In this document: one piece after another, positions 492-10,200 of the stretch | Layout of the letters: the number at the start of each line of letters is the position of its first letter | How positions within the stretch are numbered: position 1 is the stretch's first letter | DNA from: Candidatus Poribacteria bacterium | GTDB lineage: Bacteria; Poribacteria; WGA-4E; WGA-3G | DNA: 10,374 nucleotides | Assembly (NCBI GenBank): GCA_009835515.1 | Contig: VXXH01000639.1 | Location: 1-10,374 of the forward strand | Direction of reading: 5' to 3' | Notes under the pieces: generated by a model | Told to the model about the DNA's origin: nothing | Databases searched by the model: none | The model's input: only the letters and a program-made list of their open reading frames with translations | Position numbers and translations under genes: made by a program

Positions 492-986
492 GTGGAAGTG
501 GTATCTCGACGTAAATTTTTCAAATTCCTCGGTTGGGGAAATTTCACTGCAGCACTGGGGCTCACCTTGGGACCAGGGCTGGTTCGGTATCTCTATCCGC
601 GTGTGCTGTTTGAACCGTCCTCCATTTTTAAAGCAGGATTTCCAGCAGAGTATCCGCCGGGCAGTGTTAGCGAAAAGTTCAAAAAGGAACCTTATGGTGT
701 TTGGATTGTCCGAAAACAGGATGGCGAATTCTACGCACTCTTAACTATATGTACACACCTTGGATGCACGCCGCGCTGGCTCGGTTCTGAAAATAAATTC
801 AAGTGCCCCTGCCACGGTAGCGGTTTTGACCGTGAGGGTGTCAACTACGAAGGTCCCGCACCACGACCGCTTGAACGCGTTAAAATTACATTAGCAGAAG
901 ATGGTCAAATCGAAATTGATAAGTCTGTGAAGTTTTTAGGTGAGAAGGGGCAGTGGACCGACCCAAGCTCCTTTTTGAAGGTCTGA
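492..986 (+). CDS. petC: Rieske [2Fe-2S] protein of a quinol oxidase complex
   Basis: This is the iron-sulfur subunit of a Rieske/cytochrome b complex; it takes one electron from quinol at the outer face of the membrane and passes it to c-type haem. The N-terminus carries a Tat signal (S5-R6-R7-K8-F9-F10-K11) and a hydrophobic stretch (about 18-35) that should remain as the membrane anchor. The cluster motifs are CTHLGC (87-92) and CPCHGS (105-110): C87, H89, C105 and H108 are the expected ligands, with C92 and C107 the expected disulfide. At 164 residues the length is normal. The residue after SG is F112 where many bc1 Rieske proteins have the tyrosine that raises redox potential. The start is GTG at 492; GTG at 498 is equally possible, and neither has a well-spaced AGGAG site. 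The gene leads the operon and cytochrome b follows. The symbol is by homology. Confidence 0.93.
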   Translation: MEVVSRRKFFKFLGWGNFTAALGLTLGPGLVRYLYPRVLFEPSSIFKAGFPAEYPPGSVSEKFKKEPYGVWIVRKQDGEFYALLTICTHLGCTPRWLGSENKFKCPCHGSGFDREGVNYEGPAPRPLERVKITLAEDGQIEIDKSVKFLGEKGQWTDPSSFLKV

Positions 987-1103: not shown

Positions 1104-1874
1104 ATGAACGAAGAACGTAAAGGGCTCAAAGAAAAGATTACGAATTCTGACATTTGGCGCTCTATATTCCGCCACGGATATGAAGACACAGGGCGCAGGT
1201 ACACCTTACAAATTCTCCAAAACGTCTGGTTGCATCTCCATCCTCCTCGGGTTTCTCGCCATGCGCTCAACTTCCGTTTTACATGGTGCATGGGCGGTAT
1301 TACCTTCCTCATGTTCCTCGTGACGGCTGTCACGGGCGTGCTCCTGATGTTCTATTATCGACCAACTGCCGAATACGCCTTCCACGATGTACAATACCTC
1401 GAATTTGATATTCCGTTCGGGATGCTCCTACGGAACATGCACCGCTGGGCAGCACACGGGATGGTTATTTCGGTGATGTTGCACATGTTCAGAGTCTTTT
1501 TGACCGGTTCCTATAAGAAGCCACGCGAATTCAACTGGGCAGTCGGTGTCATTTTACTACTTGTGACATTTTTCCTCAGTTTCACTGGCTACCTGTTACC
1601 CTGGGATCAATTGGCTTTTTGGGCTGTAACTGTCGGAACGAACATGGCACGCGCAACACCCGTGTTGGGACACGAAGGGCCATTCGCACCGCAAGACATC
1701 ACACAATCCAACGATGTCCGATTCGCGTTACTCGCAGGTACGATTGTAGGCCCCTCAACCCTCTTGAGGTTCTATATTCTACACTGTGTCGCTGTGCCAC
1801 TTTTGGCAAGCGTGTTGATGGCGTTGCATTTCTGGCGTGTCCGTAAAGATGGAGGCATCTCTGGACCGCTATAG
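1104..1874 (+). CDS. petB: cytochrome b6-like subunit (cytochrome b N-terminal half)
   Basis: This integral membrane subunit carries the two b haems of the Rieske/b complex. Four helices are visible (about 61-84, 112-134, 146-166 and 218-242). The haem ligands are H113 and H127 on the second helix and H227 and H242 on the last one, a 14- and 15-residue spacing as in cytochrome b6 rather than mitochondrial cytochrome b (14 and 14). Other family marks are RNMHRW (110-115), LTGSYKKPRE (133-142), TGYLLPWDQ (161-169) and a C-terminal GISGPL that matches chloroplast b6. C62, in WCMGGIT, falls where b6 has Cys35, the residue bound to haem c_i. Relative to b6 there is an N-terminal extension of about 27 residues and a longer loop at 184-206. 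The ATG at 1104 lacks an AGGAG site; coupling to the 31-codon frame upstream is possible. Confidence 0.95.
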   Translation: MNEERKGLKEKITNSDIWRSIFRHGYEDTGRRYTLQILQNVWLHLHPPRVSRHALNFRFTWCMGGITFLMFLVTAVTGVLLMFYYRPTAEYAFHDVQYLEFDIPFGMLLRNMHRWAAHGMVISVMLHMFRVFLTGSYKKPREFNWAVGVILLLVTFFLSFTGYLLPWDQLAFWAVTVGTNMARATPVLGHEGPFAPQDITQSNDVRFALLAGTIVGPSTLLRFYILHCVAVPLLASVLMALHFWRVRKDGGISGPL

Positions 1875-1949
1875 ACGGCATGGTTGGAACAAATCTTTGG
1901 TGGCAGCGGAACGCAGTTTCTCTTAGCATGGGCAAGCAATCCTACCTTC

Positions 1950-1956
1950 AAAGGAG
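1950..1956 (+). promoter_or_regulatory. ribosome binding site deciding the subunit IV start
   Basis: AAAGGAG lies 11 nt before the ATG at 1968. The longer alternative, starting at TTG 1884 in the same frame, has no such site. The sequence after the ATG begins in the way I recall for this family (MEHFIALVTKPDN), so the shorter start is preferred. Confidence 0.6.
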
Positions 1957-1967
1957 CAGAAAATCGT

Positions 1968-2834
1968 ATGGAGCATTTTATAGCACTGGTGACGAAGCCG
2001 GATAATGTCCCTATTGTTGCTATTCTCTTTTTGATACCCTATTTCATCTGGCTCTCTTATCGGCAGGCACGCCTGACTGACAAAGCAGGGGTGCCTTCGG
2101 ATGCTGCACTCAACGATAAAGTCTATGTGTGGCCCTACCTCTGCCGAAACGAATTTATCTGCGCAATTATTGTGATGCTGGTGCTGGGGGTCTGGTCTAT
2201 TATGATTGATGCCCCACTTGAAGAGCCGAGTGATCCGACGAAAACCCCCAATCCATCTAAAGCACCGTGGTATTTCCTCGCACTCCAGGAGATGTTGGTT
2301 TACTTCGATCCGTGGATCGCCGGTGTCGTACTGCCGGGTCTAATTATCGCAGGCTTGATTGCTATTCCTTACATTGACACGAACCCAAAAGGTAAAGGCT
2401 ATTATACCATCAAAGAGCGTCCGTTCGCGCTTGCCGTATTCTCTTTCGGATTTATCATTTTGTGGATCGTCTTGATGGTCGTTGGGACATTTCTGAGGGG
2501 ACCCGGATGGAACTTCTTCGCGCCGTGGGAAGCCTGGGATCCACATCTTGTGGTGCCGTTGACAAACGTGAATTTATCGTATCTTTTCGGTATTCGGAGT
2601 GAGGTTACCGCAAACTTTTTCGGCTTGGTCGTTGTCGCGGGTTATTTCTCGCTCGGGCCGATCGTTTATTTATGGAAGCGGAATAGTAACCGTTTCTTAC
2701 AGGAACTGGGTCTCGTTCGATATATCATTGTCTCGTTTCTGTTTTTAACTATGCTCGCACTGCCAATAAAAATGATTTTGCGAATATTTTTCAATGTGAA
2801 ATATATCTGGGTCTCCCCATGGTTCAACATTTAG
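1968..2834 (+). CDS. petD: cytochrome b C-terminal / subunit IV-like protein
   Basis: This is the second half of a split cytochrome b, helping to form the quinol oxidation site. The family block runs from EEPSDP (85-90) through APWYFL (99-104) and LQEML (106-110) to FDPW (113-116), followed by a long hydrophobic helix. In all about six membrane helices are visible (roughly 15-32, 64-81, 117-138, 157-180, 211-236 and 250-275), three more than plant subunit IV, resembling the C-terminal part of bc1 cytochrome b. The Qo motif PEWY is replaced by APWY, so the catalytic glutamate is absent; E108 is close by and could stand in. The protein has 288 residues from ATG 1968; TTG 1884 would add 28. It follows the b6-like gene by 93 nt in the same operon. 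The symbol is by homology. Confidence 0.9.
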   Translation: MEHFIALVTKPDNVPIVAILFLIPYFIWLSYRQARLTDKAGVPSDAALNDKVYVWPYLCRNEFICAIIVMLVLGVWSIMIDAPLEEPSDPTKTPNPSKAPWYFLALQEMLVYFDPWIAGVVLPGLIIAGLIAIPYIDTNPKGKGYYTIKERPFALAVFSFGFIILWIVLMVVGTFLRGPGWNFFAPWEAWDPHLVVPLTNVNLSYLFGIRSEVTANFFGLVVVAGYFSLGPIVYLWKRNSNRFLQELGLVRYIIVSFLFLTMLALPIKMILRIFFNVKYIWVSPWFNI

Positions 2835-2878: not shown

Positions 2879-3043
2879 ATGAGTTTTGTCTTTAAAATCC
2901 GTAGAGACCCGATGTCGTCTGCTTGTATGGCTCCGAACCGATTTAATGTTCACGAACATCGTTTTGATGCACATAGAAAACCCGTTTTTGACAACGGAAA
3001 AAACGGAGCGGAAACCCAATCATTAAAAAAATGGAGGGAGTAA
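2879..3043 (+). CDS. possible 54-aa protein of unknown function
   Basis: A 54-codon frame occupies most of the gap between the subunit IV and octahaem genes. AAAAGGAG (2857-2864) lies 14 nt before the ATG, a rather long spacing. The product is polar and basic with several histidines (25, 27 and 32), one cysteine (16), and no signal or membrane span. Its TAA ends 5 nt before the proposed GTG of the octahaem gene, the same layout as the 31-codon frame before cytochrome b. I recognise no family. An open frame of this length by chance is uncommon but not rare. Confidence 0.35.
   Translation: MSFVFKIRRDPMSSACMAPNRFNVHEHRFDAHRKPVFDNGKNGAETQSLKKWRE
3033..3040 (+). promoter_or_regulatory. ribosome binding site deciding the octahaem start
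   Basis: GGAGGGAG lies 8 nt before the in-frame GTG at 3049. The ATG at 3031 overlaps this site and has only A-rich sequence before it. The GTG is therefore the more likely start and shortens the protein by six residues. Confidence 0.6.
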
Positions 3044-3048
3044 AGTTC

Positions 3049-6000
3049 GTGAGGAACAAAAAAGAAATTCCTGCTGAAAATAAATCGTATTCTGCTTTGT
3101 TCTTTATTCTGTCGGGTCTGTTAGGGCTTGTAACCTTATGGGGGTTCTGGAGTGAGATGATCACGCGCCGCCCCTGGAAGCAGATCCAGCAGCAATTTTA
3201 TCAGTATGAGTATGAGAAGACAGATGCAGAACTCGCAAACGCAAAGTTAGATTTGCCTGAACTTTCCACACCTCAAGCACCTGACGCGAAAGAGTTAGGT
3301 AGGTTAACAAAAACGGTTGAGACTGCTCAAGTTTCACTCGACGAAGCATTGCAGGAACGAAAATTCCGGCAGAGCGAATCGGATGCGATTAACTATAAGT
3401 ATCAACATAGCCTCCACGTAGCAAAAGGTAAACACAACGCGACTGTTGACAAATGGCAAGAGAAATTAGCTGAACTTGAATCTCAGATTGAAGATGAACT
3501 CACCGAAGCCGTCTTAGCAGCAGAGGCGACCTTCGCGAACGCCAACAAAGCGTTGGCACAGTTCTATCAAACCAGTAATGACCCACAGCGCGCACTCAGC
3601 ACCTACCTCATCGCACAGAAATATAATACCACAGACACAGAAATCGTTGATGGCATCGCCGCTGCACAAGCATCCCTACAAGCACTACAAGCCGACAAAG
3701 CCAAGTATGATGAAGTCGCACGTCTGCAAGAAAAATTAGGTTCGGTTGGCGGTATCAAACGAACTTTCCTCGGTAGCCTATTAGAAAACCCATTCCGTGA
3801 GACACGAACCATTACGCAATATTATCTTGAAGATTTCGATTACACCGCAGATAGGTGTGCTACGTGCCACTTTTCTGCCGATAGGAGCGGCTACGAACAA
3901 TCCGCACAAGAAACATTTGAGGTCGAAGGTGATGGCGAAAATCCCGTCGTACATCGCCTCAAGCATGCAAGCGTCAAGGTCGGTAGTGAAAGCGTCATCA
4001 TCGATGGGTTTGATGCGGAAGCAGATGAATATACACTGGAAGCAAACGGGACGCTTACCTTTAGTGATGTGGATGTCTTCGGTGAAGTCGAGATTTCTTA
4101 TGAAACCGGCTACCAACCTGTCCTTCAAACGCATCCGCACCGCGATGTCCTCCTCGCGATGCACCCAATTGATAGATTTGGATGTACACCGTGCCACGGT
4201 GGACAAGGACAAGCACTAACGGCGAAAGCCGCCCATGCATTGACACACGCTGAATACTGGCTCAGTCCTGTACTCGGATTAGATGAACACACCGGTAGAA
4301 CATCTGAAGAGACGAAAGGGTATATGGAATCTAACTGCCGCCGTTGTCATGATGGTGTCATGAAGTTGGATTACGGCGTAGATCCTGAAACAGATGAACC
4401 TGTGGATTATGCCCCGAGTCTCACAAAAGGGCTGGCTCTCTTTGAAGACCTCGGTTGCCACGGCTGCCACGCTGTGGAAGGGTATAGTGCGATCGAAAAC
4501 CTCAACAACGTCGGTCCTTCGCTCGCGAAAGTCGGCAGTAAGGTGCGAGACACAGCTTGGCTTGAGAGTTGGATTAAGAAACCTGAAGCCTATCTGCCAA
4601 ATACAACAATGCCGAACTTCTTCCCCGCCGACGGTATGAGTCAGGTCGTCTACCTCAAGAACGGCGGAACGCGTACCGGTGTTGTCACGAAAACCCCTAA
4701 CGGTATTGAGATTAAAACCGATGATGGCACTGTATATCCCTATCCGGACGATTATGTCCTCCGTATCGTTGATGAGGTAAAATCTATTGCAGCGTATCTC
4801 GCAACGATGAGTGATGCAAATCTTGACGAATCCTCCGTAAACTATTCCCAATCTGAGAGCGTTATTAAGGCAGGCGAGGAAACTGTTAAAACCGTCGGTT
4901 GCCTCACATGTCATACTGTTGACGGTTTAGGGAGCGATTTCGGCCCAGCACTTGATAGTGTCGGGACGAAGGTCACGCCGAATTATCTCCGTCAGTGGAT
5001 CAGCGACCCGAAGGCTTATGATCCCGATACTAGTATGCCGAGTTTACGGTTAAGTAACCGCGAAATTGACAACGTTGTCGCCTATCTGATGAGTTTACAG
5101 AAAGCAACTCCCAACGCAGCGGGTGAATCCATCGGTGAAGTGGACGTAGCAGAGGGCGAAACACTCGTCAGAACCTACGGATGTTTCGGTTGCCACGAAA
5201 TACCTGGCTTTGAAGATGAATCGAAGGTCGGTGCTGACCTCGGCGAATTTGGCGCGAAACTCGCTGATGAACTTGACTTTGGCGATACAGTAGGCATTGA
5301 ACACAGTTGGACCGGATGGACGATCGGCAAAGTTACCGACCCGCGACGTTATCAAACCCGACGGATAGCCTCGCGGATGCCTGTCTTTCATCAAATTAAG
5401 GACGACGAAGAAAATGCAAGGGCGCTCGCTGTGCTTTTGAAGAGTTTCCAACCCGAAAAATATCCGCTCAGTTATATCCATAACCGATCCGAAAAGTTGA
5501 ATCGTATTGATGCCGGCAGACGACTCATCAAAAAATATAACTGCACCGGATGCCACGAGATTGAGGGGGCAGGTGGTGATTATCGCGACGTTATCATCGC
5601 ACATGAAGGACTCAGTGATATGATTGCCACGCAGCTTGCACCGCCACCATTGAAGGCTGAGGGCGCGAGAGTCTATCCGGACTGGTTGTTCGCATTCCTT
5701 AAAGAGCCGTCTGATATCCGCTACGGACTCAAAGTACGGATGCCGACATTTCATCTCTCTGATGATGAAGCGACCACGCTTGCCGAATACTTCTCTGCGA
5801 TTGACGACGAACCGTTCCCTTATGAGACGCTTGAAGTGCCAACCCCAACGAGGGCTGAATTGCGGGTCGGTAAACAGATTTTTGACGAGCTCCAGTGTAT
5901 CTCTTGTCACCCTTCGCAGGGTGAAGTTATTCCTGAAGGAAGTGACAAGGCAGGACGTCCCGACCTTTCATTGGCAAAAGAACGTCTCAAACCGGATTGG

Positions 6001-6168
6001 CTCATTGACTGGATGAAAGACCCGCAGTCGTTCCAACCCGGAACGGCGATGCCGCAAGCCTGGCCACTTGTTGGTGGACAGCACATGGCACTTGATGGAT
6101 ATGCTGGAAATGACGCTGAAAAACAGATTCAACTCGTTCGAGATTACCTCATCTCGTTAGGGCGTTAA
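3049..6168 (+). CDS. membrane-anchored octahaem cytochrome c of the Rieske/b complex
   Basis: This is a very large c-type cytochrome (1,039 residues from GTG 3049) that probably takes electrons from the Rieske protein at the outer membrane face. One N-terminal helix (14-34) anchors it, and a long Glu/Ala/Lys/Gln-rich helical, probably coiled-coil, region follows (about 80-230). Eight CxxCH motifs start at 270, 379, 430, 470, 618, 712, 832 and 950. The last five each precede a Met-Pro at 521, 663, 777, 898 and 1001, the usual sixth ligand, so these look like five tandem class I cytochrome c domains. The first three lack that pattern. Two beta-rich inserts break the haem pattern: about 292-360, and about 531-577 inside the fourth haem domain. 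No cytochrome c1-like gene is present, so this protein may fill that role and act as an electron wire. I know no gene symbol for it. Confidence 0.9.
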   Translation: MRNKKEIPAENKSYSALFFILSGLLGLVTLWGFWSEMITRRPWKQIQQQFYQYEYEKTDAELANAKLDLPELSTPQAPDAKELGRLTKTVETAQVSLDEALQERKFRQSESDAINYKYQHSLHVAKGKHNATVDKWQEKLAELESQIEDELTEAVLAAEATFANANKALAQFYQTSNDPQRALSTYLIAQKYNTTDTEIVDGIAAAQASLQALQADKAKYDEVARLQEKLGSVGGIKRTFLGSLLENPFRETRTITQYYLEDFDYTADRCATCHFSADRSGYEQSAQETFEVEGDGENPVVHRLKHASVKVGSESVIIDGFDAEADEYTLEANGTLTFSDVDVFGEVEISYETGYQPVLQTHPHRDVLLAMHPIDRFGCTPCHGGQGQALTAKAAHALTHAEYWLSPVLGLDEHTGRTSEETKGYMESNCRRCHDGVMKLDYGVDPETDEPVDYAPSLTKGLALFEDLGCHGCHAVEGYSAIENLNNVGPSLAKVGSKVRDTAWLESWIKKPEAYLPNTTMPNFFPADGMSQVVYLKNGGTRTGVVTKTPNGIEIKTDDGTVYPYPDDYVLRIVDEVKSIAAYLATMSDANLDESSVNYSQSESVIKAGEETVKTVGCLTCHTVDGLGSDFGPALDSVGTKVTPNYLRQWISDPKAYDPDTSMPSLRLSNREIDNVVAYLMSLQKATPNAAGESIGEVDVAEGETLVRTYGCFGCHEIPGFEDESKVGADLGEFGAKLADELDFGDTVGIEHSWTGWTIGKVTDPRRYQTRRIASRMPVFHQIKDDEENARALAVLLKSFQPEKYPLSYIHNRSEKLNRIDAGRRLIKKYNCTGCHEIEGAGGDYRDVIIAHEGLSDMIATQLAPPPLKAEGARVYPDWLFAFLKEPSDIRYGLKVRMPTFHLSDDEATTLAEYFSAIDDEPFPYETLEVPTPTRAELRVGKQIFDELQCISCHPSQGEVIPEGSDKAGRPDLSLAKERLKPDWLIDWMKDPQSFQPGTAMPQAWPLVGGQHMALDGYAGNDAEKQIQLVRDYLISLGR

Positions 6169-6328: not shown

Positions 6329-6685
6329 ATGAGACACCTTATAGTCGTCATCGTCATGATTATTGTGTGGCTCAACGGGTTAATCTGGTTGGGTAAGCAG
6401 GTCGATCCGAGTACGAAGTATCACTCGGAGGTCGAATACAAATACGCACGGTATTGCGCTGGATGTCACGGGAACAATGGAGAGGGGAATGGACGTATCG
6501 GTCGTTTCAAAAAGTTAGACCCGGCGGACCTAACCGACAACAGTCTCTGGGAGATGCACGACGACGAACAATTGTTGAATAGCATTAACGATGGAAAAGA
6601 TGATATGCCGGCGTTCTACTACTACCTCAGCGATGAAGAACAACGTGAGATTCTCACCTACATTAAGGAGACATTTCGTCCATAA
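6329..6685 (+). CDS. membrane-anchored monohaem cytochrome c (class I)
   Basis: This small 118-residue cytochrome has an N-terminal hydrophobic helix (4-22), best read as an uncleaved membrane anchor, and a haem domain outside the membrane. CAGCH (43-47) binds the haem, and M93 in DDMPAF is the expected sixth ligand. The GNNGEGNG loop just after the haem motif is typical of small class I cytochromes. It probably moves electrons between the octahaem cytochrome and a terminal acceptor. The ATG at 6329 has no visible AGGAG site and lies 25 bases after an inverted repeat, so initiation may be weak or depend on the repeat structure. Which neighbour it serves is inferred from position only. Confidence 0.88.
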   Translation: MRHLIVVIVMIIVWLNGLIWLGKQVDPSTKYHSEVEYKYARYCAGCHGNNGEGNGRIGRFKKLDPADLTDNSLWEMHDDEQLLNSINDGKDDMPAFYYYLSDEEQREILTYIKETFRP

Positions 6686-6896: not shown

Positions 6897-7649
6897 ATGA
6901 AAACCCTAATTGCCTTGCTTGTCTTTGGAATGCTCGCAAGTGTTGCATTGGCAGGCAATATCACTGGCACGGTAATGTATGATGGCGACGCACCGGCGCG
7001 TCCAGAACTAACGGCTACTAAAGACCAGCATTGCGTTGATGCTGTAAAAGGCACAAAATCAGAGGCACTCGTTGTTTCAAAAGGCAAAGGCATCAAGAAT
7101 GTTGTTATTTACGCCCGCGTCCGCGGCGGAAAAGTAACCTTGCCTGAGAAGAACCCTGTTATGGATCAGAAGGGGTGCGCTTACTACCCGCACGTGCTTG
7201 CTGTTCCTGTAGGTGCTACGGTCGATCTTACTTCCAAGGACCCAGTGGCGCACAACGTCCACTCCCACGCGCAGAAAAACAAAGCAATAAACATTCAGAT
7301 TCCAAAACCTGGGATCGTTTATCCACACAAAATCGAAAAGGCTGAAGAAATTAAGTTCACATGCGATATTCACGCGTGGATGACAGGCTACATCGTCGCT
7401 GTCCCCAGTAATTTTTATACTGTCACGGGCTACAAAGACGCTGAAGGTAAAGAATGGCTCAGTTCGGATGCCTTTGAAAAATCAGCGGACACTGGCTCCT
7501 ATACGCTCGAGAATGTGCCAGCCGGTAGAGCACGCGTCGTCGCATGGCATGAGGAACTCGGCTCAGCAAACAAAACGATTGAAGTGCCAGCAAGTGGCGA
7601 TATTGCCGTAAACTTCACGAGTGCTGATTTTAAGAAAAAAGCAAAATAA
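6897..7649 (+). CDS. secreted two-domain cupredoxin-like protein
   Basis: This 250-residue exported protein starts with a clear Sec signal, with likely cleavage after ALA at 19. The first domain is plastocyanin-like: H119 (in PVAHNVH), C156, H159 and M162 (CxxHxxM) fit a type 1 copper site. H122 and H124 lie beside the first ligand. C46 and C94 form an additional conserved-looking pair. The C-terminal part (about 170-245) is a small beta-sandwich of the carboxypeptidase-regulatory type, with SYTLENVPAGRARVVAWHEELG-like strands. I recall this domain pair near respiratory genes in Planctomycetes-type genomes, usually without an assigned role. Here it could shuttle electrons between the Rieske/b side and the CydA-like protein. 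Copper binding is inferred from motif only. It has a strong ribosome site, unlike the genes on either side. Confidence 0.85.
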   Translation: MKTLIALLVFGMLASVALAGNITGTVMYDGDAPARPELTATKDQHCVDAVKGTKSEALVVSKGKGIKNVVIYARVRGGKVTLPEKNPVMDQKGCAYYPHVLAVPVGATVDLTSKDPVAHNVHSHAQKNKAINIQIPKPGIVYPHKIEKAEEIKFTCDIHAWMTGYIVAVPSNFYTVTGYKDAEGKEWLSSDAFEKSADTGSYTLENVPAGRARVVAWHEELGSANKTIEVPASGDIAVNFTSADFKKKAK

Positions 7650-7791: not shown

Positions 7792-9693
7792 ATGAAAATA
7801 TCTAAGAAGAGGCTCTATCTCATACTGGGCTGTGTGCTTGTCTTTTATGCTGTGTTAGTTATCACACCAGCGTTCGCACAGGACGTGACCGAGGCTGAGT
7901 ATCGCGCCTTCCCGAAGATTGGCAGCCGAAACGCAGCATGGATCGCTGCGCAGCTCCACCTGTTATTCGGATCCTTTATTCTCGGTGTCCCGATGTTCGC
8001 CGTTATCATCGAATTCATCGGTTGGAAAACCAAGGATGAACGGTATGACCGGATGGCGCAGGAGTTCATTAAACTCTGTATGGGGGCGTTTTCGACAACA
8101 GCCTTACTCGGTGGTGTTCTCGTCTTCATTCTTATCTGGTGCTACCCGAAAGTAATGAGTAAACTCAGCGGGATATTCGGACCGACGATGATTTTTTACG
8201 TCGTCCTGTTCTTCGGTGAGACCTTTACGCTCTACCTCTATTCCTACGGATGGGACAAGATGCAGGGGCGACATAAAGGGTGGCATCTCTTCCTCGGTGT
8301 TTTATTAAACGTCTGGGGCACCGCGATTATGTTTGTCTCTAACTCTTGGTTGAGTTACCAAACGAGTCCGGCAACCCAATACGGCGTGCTATCTGAAGGA
8401 AGGCGGAAGTCTTGGATTGAAGAAAAATTGGCTGCGGATCCGGCTCTAACACCTGAAACCGCTATGGAGGGTGTTACAAGCCATACAATGGTGCCACTCC
8501 ATAACGAGACAACAGGCGAGTTCATGGGAACCATTTGGGATGCAGTCAACAACTTTACGTGGATGCCAGTTAATCTCCATCGACTCGTTGGGAACATTGC
8601 CTTCGGCGGTTCGATTGTGGCGGCTTATGCGGCGTTCCGATTCCTCGTAGCGAAGACGAAAGAGGACAAAGCACACTACGATTGGATGGGGTATACCGGA
8701 AACTTCATCGCACTCTGCGGACTTATACCACTGCCATTCCTCGGTTATTGGCTCGGTAGAGAGATCTACATGTTCAATAACACGATGGGCATCAACATGA
8801 TGGGAAGTCTTTTCTCTTGGTTGTTTATCATTCAGGCAGTGATGATTGGTGTCCTATTTATTGGCGCGAATTACTACCTCTGGTCAGGCATGGGGCGCAT
8901 TCAGGGGGCGGAGATCTACGCGCGTTACCGTCCATACATGATTACCATTATCGTTATCTGTGTCGCAGTCTGGATGACACCGCGAACGCTCTCTAAAATC
9001 TCAACCGCCAGTGAATTGAGCGCAATGGGCGGGGCAAATCATCCACACCTCGGATTGTTCGGCTTGATGACTGCCAAGAATACGGCTGTTAATATCATTA
9101 TCCTCGCCACCTTTTTGAGTTTTTTGTTCTATCGGCGTTCGGGGAAAACACCGACGGCAAGTTGGCGCAAGGTGGGGAACATAGCGATTTCCTCTATCTT
9201 CTTTCTCGCAACTGTCTCAATTGTGGTTATCGGCATCGTCGGATTTACCGTTCCTACGGATTTACGCGTCAATGTCCTAACCCCATATCAAGTGCTGGTC
9301 GCGCTTGTTGTCATGGCGGTTGTCACGATTGTTGATATTTTCATGTACCGCAAAGCCACAACATCTGGTGCTATCAATTGGGGCGAAATGACGGATCGAT
9401 CACAGTACGTCTTAATCCTTATCGCTATTACGTTTACCTCCCTGATGGGACTTATGGGTTATGCACGTTCAGGACTGAGGGAGGCATGGCATATCTTCGG
9501 GGTCATGCAGGATACATCTCCGGATGCATTTACACCGCTTCTCAGCGAGGCTGTGAACATGGTAGCGATTATCATGGTCGTCTTCTTCGCACTCGTCGGG
9601 TTTATCTTCTGGCTCGGTTTATGGGGTGAAAAGAAGAAGCAAGCCGCAGCTGCCCCTGTGGAGACGGAAGCTGCTATTCAAGGTGATGATTAA
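7792..9693 (+). CDS. CydA-like (cytochrome bd subunit I-related) membrane protein
   Basis: This 633-residue, roughly 12-13-helix protein is related to subunit I of cytochrome bd oxidase. It begins with a signal-like segment ending AFA at 27-29, so the mature end is probably outside. Compared by eye with E. coli CydA recalled from memory, H56 matches His19, E143 matches Glu107 and H263 matches His186. F135 falls at Glu99 and W320 at Glu445. GRQPW becomes GREIY (322-326). Only about 60 residues separate H263 from GR, against about 200 in E. coli, so the Q-loop, its flanking helices and the Met393 region appear to be missing. About four extra C-terminal helices follow, with a conserved-looking YARSGLREAWH (557-567). 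No cydB gene is in the window. It resembles the described quinol-site-lacking, bd-like (OR-N type) proteins. The electron donor may be the cytochrome c or copper protein next door. Confidence 0.82.
   Translation: MKISKKRLYLILGCVLVFYAVLVITPAFAQDVTEAEYRAFPKIGSRNAAWIAAQLHLLFGSFILGVPMFAVIIEFIGWKTKDERYDRMAQEFIKLCMGAFSTTALLGGVLVFILIWCYPKVMSKLSGIFGPTMIFYVVLFFGETFTLYLYSYGWDKMQGRHKGWHLFLGVLLNVWGTAIMFVSNSWLSYQTSPATQYGVLSEGRRKSWIEEKLAADPALTPETAMEGVTSHTMVPLHNETTGEFMGTIWDAVNNFTWMPVNLHRLVGNIAFGGSIVAAYAAFRFLVAKTKEDKAHYDWMGYTGNFIALCGLIPLPFLGYWLGREIYMFNNTMGINMMGSLFSWLFIIQAVMIGVLFIGANYYLWSGMGRIQGAEIYARYRPYMITIIVICVAVWMTPRTLSKISTASELSAMGGANHPHLGLFGLMTAKNTAVNIIILATFLSFLFYRRSGKTPTASWRKVGNIAISSIFFLATVSIVVIGIVGFTVPTDLRVNVLTPYQVLVALVVMAVVTIVDIFMYRKATTSGAINWGEMTDRSQYVLILIAITFTSLMGLMGYARSGLREAWHIFGVMQDTSPDAFTPLLSEAVNMVAIIMVVFFALVGFIFWLGLWGEKKKQAAAAPVETEAAIQGDD
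9680..9685 (+). promoter_or_regulatory. ribosome site inside the end of the CydA-like gene
   Basis: AAGGTG lies 8 nt before the ATG at 9694 and within the last codons of the preceding gene. It supports the start at 9694 and translation coupled to the CydA-like gene. Confidence 0.45.
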
Positions 9694-10200
9694 ATGAGAA
9701 GGATGTATATCGCTATTTTGGTGATAGGATTGGCTCTTGGTTTCCCTTTTATAGCGATTGCTGATTCGTCTCAAGCAGAGTTAGAGGTATTGCGCCGAAT
9801 TGCAAATGCCGCTAAGCATGATGCTAATACTGACGAGGATGGGTGTTTCTGGTTTTGTAGCGGTTTTTCTCTGGCACTTGGTGGCGGTTGTCTTTTGGGT
9901 TCGCTTAGTTTGGTAAGTTCTTATTCATATAGACCTTCTCCTCCCCTTACTCGACTGGTGGGGAAACCACCTGAATATATCAGTGTCTATATAGATACCT
10001 ATAAAGAGCAGAGGAGATCGGATGCAGCAAGCGCAGCAATAGTCGGTTGTGCTTTGGGCGCAGCCACGGCGGGATGTCTGGCACTTATTGGCGTTTCCCC
10101 ATGGTCGACTGCCCTTCAGGAATCAACCGACAAGTATGGACACGGTGTTAATGTCGTTCTTTCAGGGATCAGTCGCGTGGCGGTCATAAGAAACTGGTAA
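9694..10200 (+). CDS. exported membrane protein of unknown function (168 aa)
   Basis: This gene starts directly on the base after the stop of the CydA-like gene, so the two are probably co-translated. It encodes a Sec signal (about 5-23, ending AIA), then a charged helix (27-49), a glycine-rich hydrophobic segment (52-76) and a second small-residue hydrophobic segment (111-134). Between them lies a conserved-looking block with SPP (82-84), GKPPEY (90-95) and a YxDxYKEQRRS stretch (99-109). Cysteines at 51, 55, 66, 119 and 128 fall in or beside the hydrophobic segments. I recall similar unnamed proteins with paired glycine-rich segments around a (G)KxPEY motif, without a known function. Position suggests, but does not show, a link to the respiratory proteins. 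A small accessory subunit for the lone CydA-like protein is one option. Confidence 0.75.
   Translation: MRRMYIAILVIGLALGFPFIAIADSSQAELEVLRRIANAAKHDANTDEDGCFWFCSGFSLALGGGCLLGSLSLVSSYSYRPSPPLTRLVGKPPEYISVYIDTYKEQRRSDAASAAIVGCALGAATAGCLALIGVSPWSTALQESTDKYGHGVNVVLSGISRVAVIRNW

Follow-up and report, generated by a model that had tools for sequence, protein, structure and literature searches.

The OR-N families of the cytochrome bd superfamily, and with them CydAA', were reportedly described by Murali et al. in 2021. The role of bd-like proteins that lack a Q-loop is usually discussed alongside nitrite oxidation or oxygen reduction. This protein type was in print by 2013, and a family without the quinol site is on record (PMC3578206; PMC8026999; PMC10839748). 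In the nitrite oxidoreductase (NXR) clusters of Nitrospina gracilis, Nitrospira and anammox bacteria, bd-like oxidases keep a CydA-like N-terminal half with its haem b ligands (PMC3578206; PMC8026999; PMC6606698), carry membrane helices in place of the Q-loop, about 14 helices in all (PMC3578206), and have cytochromes c, an alternative NxrC and, in some clusters, a cupredoxin-like protein as neighbors (PMC3578206; PMC8026999; PMC6606698). In OR-N proteins and CydAA', which also have no quinol site, cytochrome c is the proposed donor (PMC10839748; PMC12342949). Candidatus Manganitrophus has a bd-like protein together with a periplasmic cytochrome b in TO_1, and complex III-like parts in TO_3 and TO_4 (PMC9040806). 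We analyzed a bd-like gene on a Candidatus Poribacteria contig (VXXH01000639.1), whose whole length of 10374 bases is called the window below. Its product resembles all of these systems in the respects just named, and is one of the already known bd-like (OR-N) proteins of nitrite oxidizers, anammox bacteria and others. A preliminary description of this DNA had rightly pointed to such families in the literature; the new function that it also raised is possible, for a protein type that is itself already published.

The Poribacteria locus departs from these systems in its company. Unlike in the NXR-linked clusters, genes for a bc-type complex precede the module and those for a haem-copper oxidase follow it; it occurs once per genome, and is accompanied by no detected NXR alpha subunit in the genome of a bacterium in which no sign of nitrite oxidation was seen. 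In contrast to TO_1 to TO_4 as PMC9040806 portrays them, it unites complex III parts, the NxrC-like protein and the haem-copper oxidase in one cluster, and no MrpD-like gene is among its 15 genes. CydAA' differs in that the 67 Poribacteria genomes with a bd-like gene have no second one, and in that the column of Escherichia coli Glu445 here reads Ser. With a single copy, no detectable NXR alpha and haem-copper oxidase genes inside the cluster, Poribacteria separate these two usual explanations, nitrite oxidation and oxygen reduction, from each other. The protein is not a quinol oxidase and is probably not the main oxygen-reducing subunit. The reading we prefer, and hold tentatively, is a haem-b electron-transfer membrane subunit of CydA stock, placed between complexes III and IV. 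Speaking for it are the ligand map, the CydA fold, the fixed order of 15 genes, the NxrC-like gene near most bd-like genes outside Poribacteria, the presence of other oxidases in the genomes, the single copy in each and the occurrence of the family in anammox Scalindua. What is new here is the corrected ligand map, in which Tyr136 is the most telling residue, and the cluster of complex III, bd-like protein and haem-copper oxidase in Poribacteria without detectable NXR; a literature search by title and abstract start, which does not prove absence, found no account of the module in this phylum among the papers listed.

The open reading frame (ORF) is intact, its product is well conserved, and the CydA fold spans the whole of it. 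The only Pfam match at E ≤0.001 is PF01654 (residues 46-326 against profile positions 3-238 of 418); COX1 (PF00115) was not found in the protein. Fold and domain are thus shared with canonical CydA, and the differences from the E. coli protein are the missing Q-loop, the replacement of Glu99 and Glu445, extra helices and the lack of a CydB match in the cluster. A tentative fold resemblance to ActF/NrfD of alternative complex III was also noted. By eye, residues 1 to 25-30 resemble a signal peptide. The secondary structure has 15 helices of at least 15 residues, or 14 if 290-311 and 314-328 count as one.

To map the haem sites, 51 relatives (set A1) were aligned by hhalign with 13 canonical CydA sequences (set A2: CydA and AppC of E. 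coli plus 11 from Poribacteria). Sequences outside 560-760 residues or below 300 bits had been excluded before anything was counted. Residues 42-282 aligned (Prob 98.7, E 3.5e-16). His19 of E. coli CydA is a haem-site histidine. Residue counts are given for the window's family and for two sister families, S (about 520 residues) and N, after merging identical rows (196, 20 and 98 distinct proteins, respectively); S and N represent the best 120 of 1677 listed proteins, and one sister-family alignment took in 13 of 100 N proteins. The E. coli ligand roles of Glu99, Glu445, His186 and Met393 follow PMC6853902. The positions concerned, all on the forward strand, are:

7792..9693, forward: bd-like (OR-N-like) CydA homologue, 633 amino acids
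7957..7959, forward: His56, counterpart of E. coli CydA His19 by hhalign; 51/51 in A1, 195/196 in the family with one gap
8194..8196, forward: Phe135, paired with Glu99 in the preliminary description; off by one by hhalign, and variable in the family counts
8197..8199, forward: Tyr136, in the place of Glu99; the same residue throughout the three bd-like families
8218..8220, forward: Glu143, counterpart of Glu107 by hhalign; 196/196
8578..8580, forward: His263, counterpart of His186 (haem b558 ligand) by hhalign; 196/196

The alignment pairs H19 with H56, E99 with Y136, E107 with E143 and H186 with H263, in agreement with the three retained ligands picked out earlier by eye. E143 and H263 are accompanied by H165, H295, H417, M337, M426, K429, Q500, W566 and H567 as residues found in 196/196 family members. 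A profile alignment against CydA had been proposed in the preliminary description, and it finds both Glu99 and Glu445 replaced. That Glu99 is lost had been stated there, with Phe as the new residue; the loss stands and the residue does not. The spacing between E99 and E107 is eight in E. coli CydA and AppC and seven in the other 11 canonical sequences, and the extra residue of E. coli relative to G. thermodenitrificans has been described as the Leu101 insertion (PMC6853902). Because it lies seven residues before E143, with E. coli carrying one extra residue, Tyr136 is the counterpart of Glu99. It is invariant in 314/314 bd-like proteins (196/196, 20/20 in S, 98/98 in N), and position 135 varies among the 196 family members (F 170, V 9, I 7, Y 4, L 3); on alignment, spacing and variability alike, Phe135 was ruled out. 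As judged from these alignments, all the bd-like proteins examined have a tyrosine where cytochrome bd presents a carboxylate to the haem.

The second half of the chain bears on the Q-loop, on Met393 and on Glu445:

8755..8769, forward: GREIY (residues 322-326), end of transmembrane helix (TM) 6 and start of the lost Q-loop, by the sister-family profile
8809..9348, forward: residues 340-519, with helices 342-367, 380-394, 426-449, 459-483 and 489-519 by secondary structure
8833..8835, forward: Gln348, possible counterpart of Met393 with helix 342-367 as TM7; 51/51 in A1, paired by eye
9067..9069, forward: Met426, the other candidate for that position if TM7 is helix 426-449; 196/196, 20/20 and 98/98, paired by eye
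9469..9489, forward: SGLREAW (residues 560-566), counterpart of E445-YGRQPW with Ser560 for Glu445, by alignments and family counts

By profile alignment and by secondary structure, TM6 and TM7 are not separated by a Q-loop that carries quinol-binding residues. Membrane helix 342-367 begins 14 residues past the end of TM6, where the confident profile match also ends; extra helices take the place of the Q-loop, and the C-terminal helices are retained. Among the helices in 340-519, one must match canonical TM7, and the others replace the Q-loop or are inserted hairpins. Residues 484-520 are gapped in the sister families, where the preceding stretch is missing as well. The removal of the quinol site, as first described, is therefore upheld by the absent Q-loop and the helix in its place. 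The accompanying picture of about 60 residues left where E. coli has about 200 is not supported as a shortening of the chain, which has extra helices; a simple shortening of CydA was rejected on the secondary structure and on the CydA fold over the full chain.

The position of Met393, which the preliminary description took as probably lost, depends on which helix is TM7. Low-confidence hhalign results put it near residue 502 in the window's family, or in the helix equivalent to 426-449 in S. A structural model of residues 34-452 (pLDDT 77.3) was compared with the PDB, and among the alignments to ten CydA chains that were examined five end at residue 370 or 379, thus with helix 342-367, and five at 449-452, with helix 426-449. 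An ungapped profile scan for TM7 was discarded, as its own controls failed (TM8, for example, was not where expected).

For Glu445, hhalign of the C-terminus sets R563-W566 on R448-W451 (Prob 36, E 3.8e-4), which is weak alone. The sister families provide the register: their RELVRKNWH and similar segments stand against RSGLREAWH in the window's family, and in them the E-x-x-R-x-x-W of E. coli E445-Y-G-R-Q-P-W recurs with Glu at column 560. Since they fix the register, Ser560 is the counterpart, and on these alignments Glu445 is most likely replaced by Ser560 within SGLREAW. Column 560 is Ser in 194/196 members of the window's family and Glu in 15/20 S and 86/98 N proteins, the remainder having Ser or Ala. 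Arg559 (9466-9468), adjoining the old Glu445 position, is found in 195/196 with one gap, 20/20 S and 98/98 N, and His567 (9490-9492), directly after the GRQPW counterpart, is invariant across the three families apart from one gap. The loss of Glu445 had thus been seen correctly, with Trp, ruled out by this register, as the wrong substitute. The change of GRQPW to GREIY proved mistaken: S aligns with canonical CydA up to E. coli residue 250, and because its profile maps the segment equal to window G318-E324 onto E. coli G238-E244, where the Q-loop begins, GREIY was ruled out as the motif. With both Glu99 and Glu445 replaced, it is unlikely that the haem d/b595 pair of canonical enzymes assembles in its usual manner, consistent with the altered haems suggested at the outset. 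The corrected map (Glu99 to Tyr throughout; Glu445 to Ser here and mostly Glu in the sisters) marks where haem ligation and content should differ.

The gene lies in a cluster whose upstream part is in the window:

492..986, forward: Rieske iron-sulphur protein (PF00355)
1104..1874, forward: cytochrome b6-like subunit (PF00033)
1884..2834, forward: subunit IV-like (cytochrome b C-terminal) protein (PF00032)
3031..6168, forward: c-type cytochrome of 1045 amino acids with eight CxxCH motifs (domain scan, motif count)
6329..6685, forward: monohaem c-type cytochrome (domain scan, motif count)
6897..7649, forward: protein of 250 amino acids, cupredoxin-like by eye; in Pfam, a sub-threshold CarboxypepD_reg match only

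We compared 57 Poribacteria loci selected by the presence of the bd-like gene; therefore, the counts show its company and not the frequency of the cluster without it, and for each gene the count is limited to loci considered long enough to show it (53/57 for the bd-like gene itself). One arrangement of 15 genes is shared by 38/57 loci: Rieske, cytochrome b6, subunit IV, octahaem c, monohaem c, cupredoxin-like and bd-like, followed by dihaem c, monohaem c, NxrC-like, cupredoxin-like, ABC ATPase, ABC permease, coxII and coxI. Twelve gene orders, covering 53/57 loci, were examined, and the others are mostly this list truncated at one or both ends. Rieske is present in 40/45 loci with room, cytochrome b6 and subunit IV in 43/46, the 250-residue cupredoxin-like gene beside bd-like in 53/53, dihaem c in 51/51 and NxrC-like in 50/50; where the locus runs on for 9.5 kb or more, coxII is present in 45/45 and coxI in 41/45. 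In the NxrC-like protein, Pfam recognizes an ethylbenzene-dehydrogenase domain, and there are two c-haem motifs; the cluster oxidase, with COX1 and COX2 domains, is presumably of the aa3 type. The source assembly is fragmented (4.85 Mb, 881 contigs, completeness 78.6%); the window is its entire contig C363, and the remaining genes lie on C774 (dihaem c, monohaem c, NxrC-like) and C366 (cupredoxin-like, ABC, coxII, coxI). A phmmer search with E. coli CydB matched no ORF in the Poribacteria bd-like loci, and in a control the same query matched the gene beside canonical cydA (L002, 62 bits).

Among 84 genomes of the Poribacteria phylum, 67 have one full-length bd-like gene each and none has two (profile A1, with which PF01654 agrees). 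Second A1 matches are canonical CydA, which the window's genome also encodes, so that no second OR-N-type CydA-like gene, and hence no CydAA' pair, was found in any of the 67. COX1 is present in 76/84.

Under our preferred reading, the bd-like protein would form a complex with the cytochromes of the cluster and hold no more than two b haems, in the positions known from CydA. Tyr136 would face, or ligate, the His56 haem, and the subunit would relay electrons among c haems from complex III to complex IV. A more specific proposal, which we regard as rather unlikely in its entirety, is that this CydA relative, in which Tyr136 would partner the haem instead of Glu99 and Glu445 is missing, has given up quinol oxidation and oxygen reduction alike and now serves as the haem-b core of a bridge from complex III (bc-type) to complex IV (haem-copper). 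If so, the NXR link of nitrite oxidizers would be one use of a more general hub of c cytochromes. Several points weigh against an electron-transfer subunit. His56, Glu143 and the invariant Tyr136 would, to judge from sequence, be just as compatible with a haem that binds oxygen and has a redox-active tyrosine, and OR-N proteins are treated in the literature as putative cytochrome c-oxidizing O2 reductases (PMC10839748; PMC12342949). Glu is likewise missing from column 560 in 12/98 N and 5/20 S proteins, and the C-terminal alignment of the window's family, taken alone, is weak (Prob 36). The complex itself is suggested by gene order, which proves none. Scalindua, finally, consumes oxygen, an activity ascribed to a cbb3 oxidase and flavodiiron proteins (PMC13253579).

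The strongest competitor, possible although doubtful, is a cytochrome c-dependent O2 reductase as in the OR-N proposal (PMC10839748; PMC12342949; PMC12324825), in which electrons would pass from c haems to the H263 haem and on to a single high-spin haem bound by His56, with Tyr136 as proton or electron donor. The invariance of H56, H263, Glu143 and Tyr136 and the c cytochromes encoded alongside are consistent with such an enzyme. However, Glu445 is replaced in the window's subfamily, haem-copper oxidase genes share the cluster and canonical bd the genome, the single OR-N-type copy leaves no CydAA' pair, and the family also occurs in anammox bacteria.

It appears distinctly unlikely that the protein here serves to drive electrons backward, from donors in the periplasm to quinone, with the NxrC-like protein as entry and a quinone site that is new or in the neighboring cytochrome b. 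Such reverse electron transport has been proposed for nitrite oxidizers and anammox bacteria, whose NXR-linked clusters contain the same module (PMC3578206; PMC8026999; PMC6606698), but the Q-loop is absent, and an NXR-like alpha was detected in just one of the 67 Poribacteria genomes that have the gene. We used TIGR03479 as the model of NXR-type alpha subunits, with a line at 100 bits chosen after seeing the controls (Nitrospinia 210 bits, Scalindua 247 bits and, as a single piece, 124 bits in another Scalindua genome). The curated cut-off was dropped as a test for NXR, as the Nitrospinia and Scalindua scores of 210 and 247 bits lie beneath it. Five of the 84 genomes exceed 100 bits (G007 281, G010 277, G011 276, G008 254, G002 121), and only G007 among them has the bd-like gene; an alpha above the line is thus missing from 66/67 bd-like-bearing genomes, as far as incomplete genomes can show. 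Genomes of families f1-f3 score at most 74 bits, and the top score in the window's genome is 64 bits, from a frame reading through TGA. A frame of about 900 residues for a molybdopterin oxidoreductase with one in-frame TGA was seen on contig G000:C613 and in many of the 84 genomes, and is likely a selenocysteine formate dehydrogenase.

In favor of reverse transport, an NXR/Nar-like alpha does share a contig with the bd-like gene in some genomes. In G007, which belongs to the same class but is less closely related, it lies about 7 kb away (L145, C25:4000-23000), with iron-sulphur and chaperone-like genes in between by eye. The genomes of L067, L070 and L071 have alpha frames of 237-241 bits; in L067 and L070 one of 237 bits is on the bd-like contig. 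These four cases count against a clean separation of bd-like and NXR. Other module-bearing genomes (SAR324, Methyloligella, Rhodospirillaceae, Bacteroidetes, the Deltaproteobacteria of L058, Troglogloeales and Latescibacterota) score 68-128 bits only, and a Melainabacteria genome with the module gave no TIGR03479 match; given these low scores, the module often occurs without NXR. The remaining explanation, a haem-poor structural or assembly subunit merely scaffolding c cytochromes, is favored by the loss of two canonical haem-site residues and the ambiguous place of Met393 but is very improbable given H56, H263, H165, H295, H417 and H567 invariant in 51/51 rows.

We checked 22 loci from outside Poribacteria, among them Nitrospinota, Nitrospirota, Planctomycetota (Scalindua), Pseudomonadota, SAR324, Myxococcota and others. 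Two (L069, L073) stop at the bd-like gene; of the 20 others, 19 have an NxrC-like gene no more than 4.5 kb further on, and L082 stops 1.8 kb downstream. Rieske, cytochrome b6 and subunit IV lie upstream in two of the four Scalindua loci (L077, L078). In a tree, the Poribacteria rows group with a Latescibacterota row, away from Scalindua; branches are long, and the deep order was not used.

No tRNA and no Rfam match reaching the gathering threshold were found in the window. A 168-residue ORF (9694-10200) begins at the base directly after the bd-like stop codon; it matches no Pfam or NCBIfam family, and lies directly behind the bd-like gene in only 5/57 Poribacteria loci. Five loci (L059, L065, L074, L075, L076) have two tandem modules of bd-like, c cytochrome and NxrC-like genes, and in L065, L074 and L076 both bd-like copies, which are in the tree, fall into two different subclades. 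The Troglogloeales genome G088 (L080) has six full or partial bd-like matches in 1.6 Mb, including the very divergent L140.
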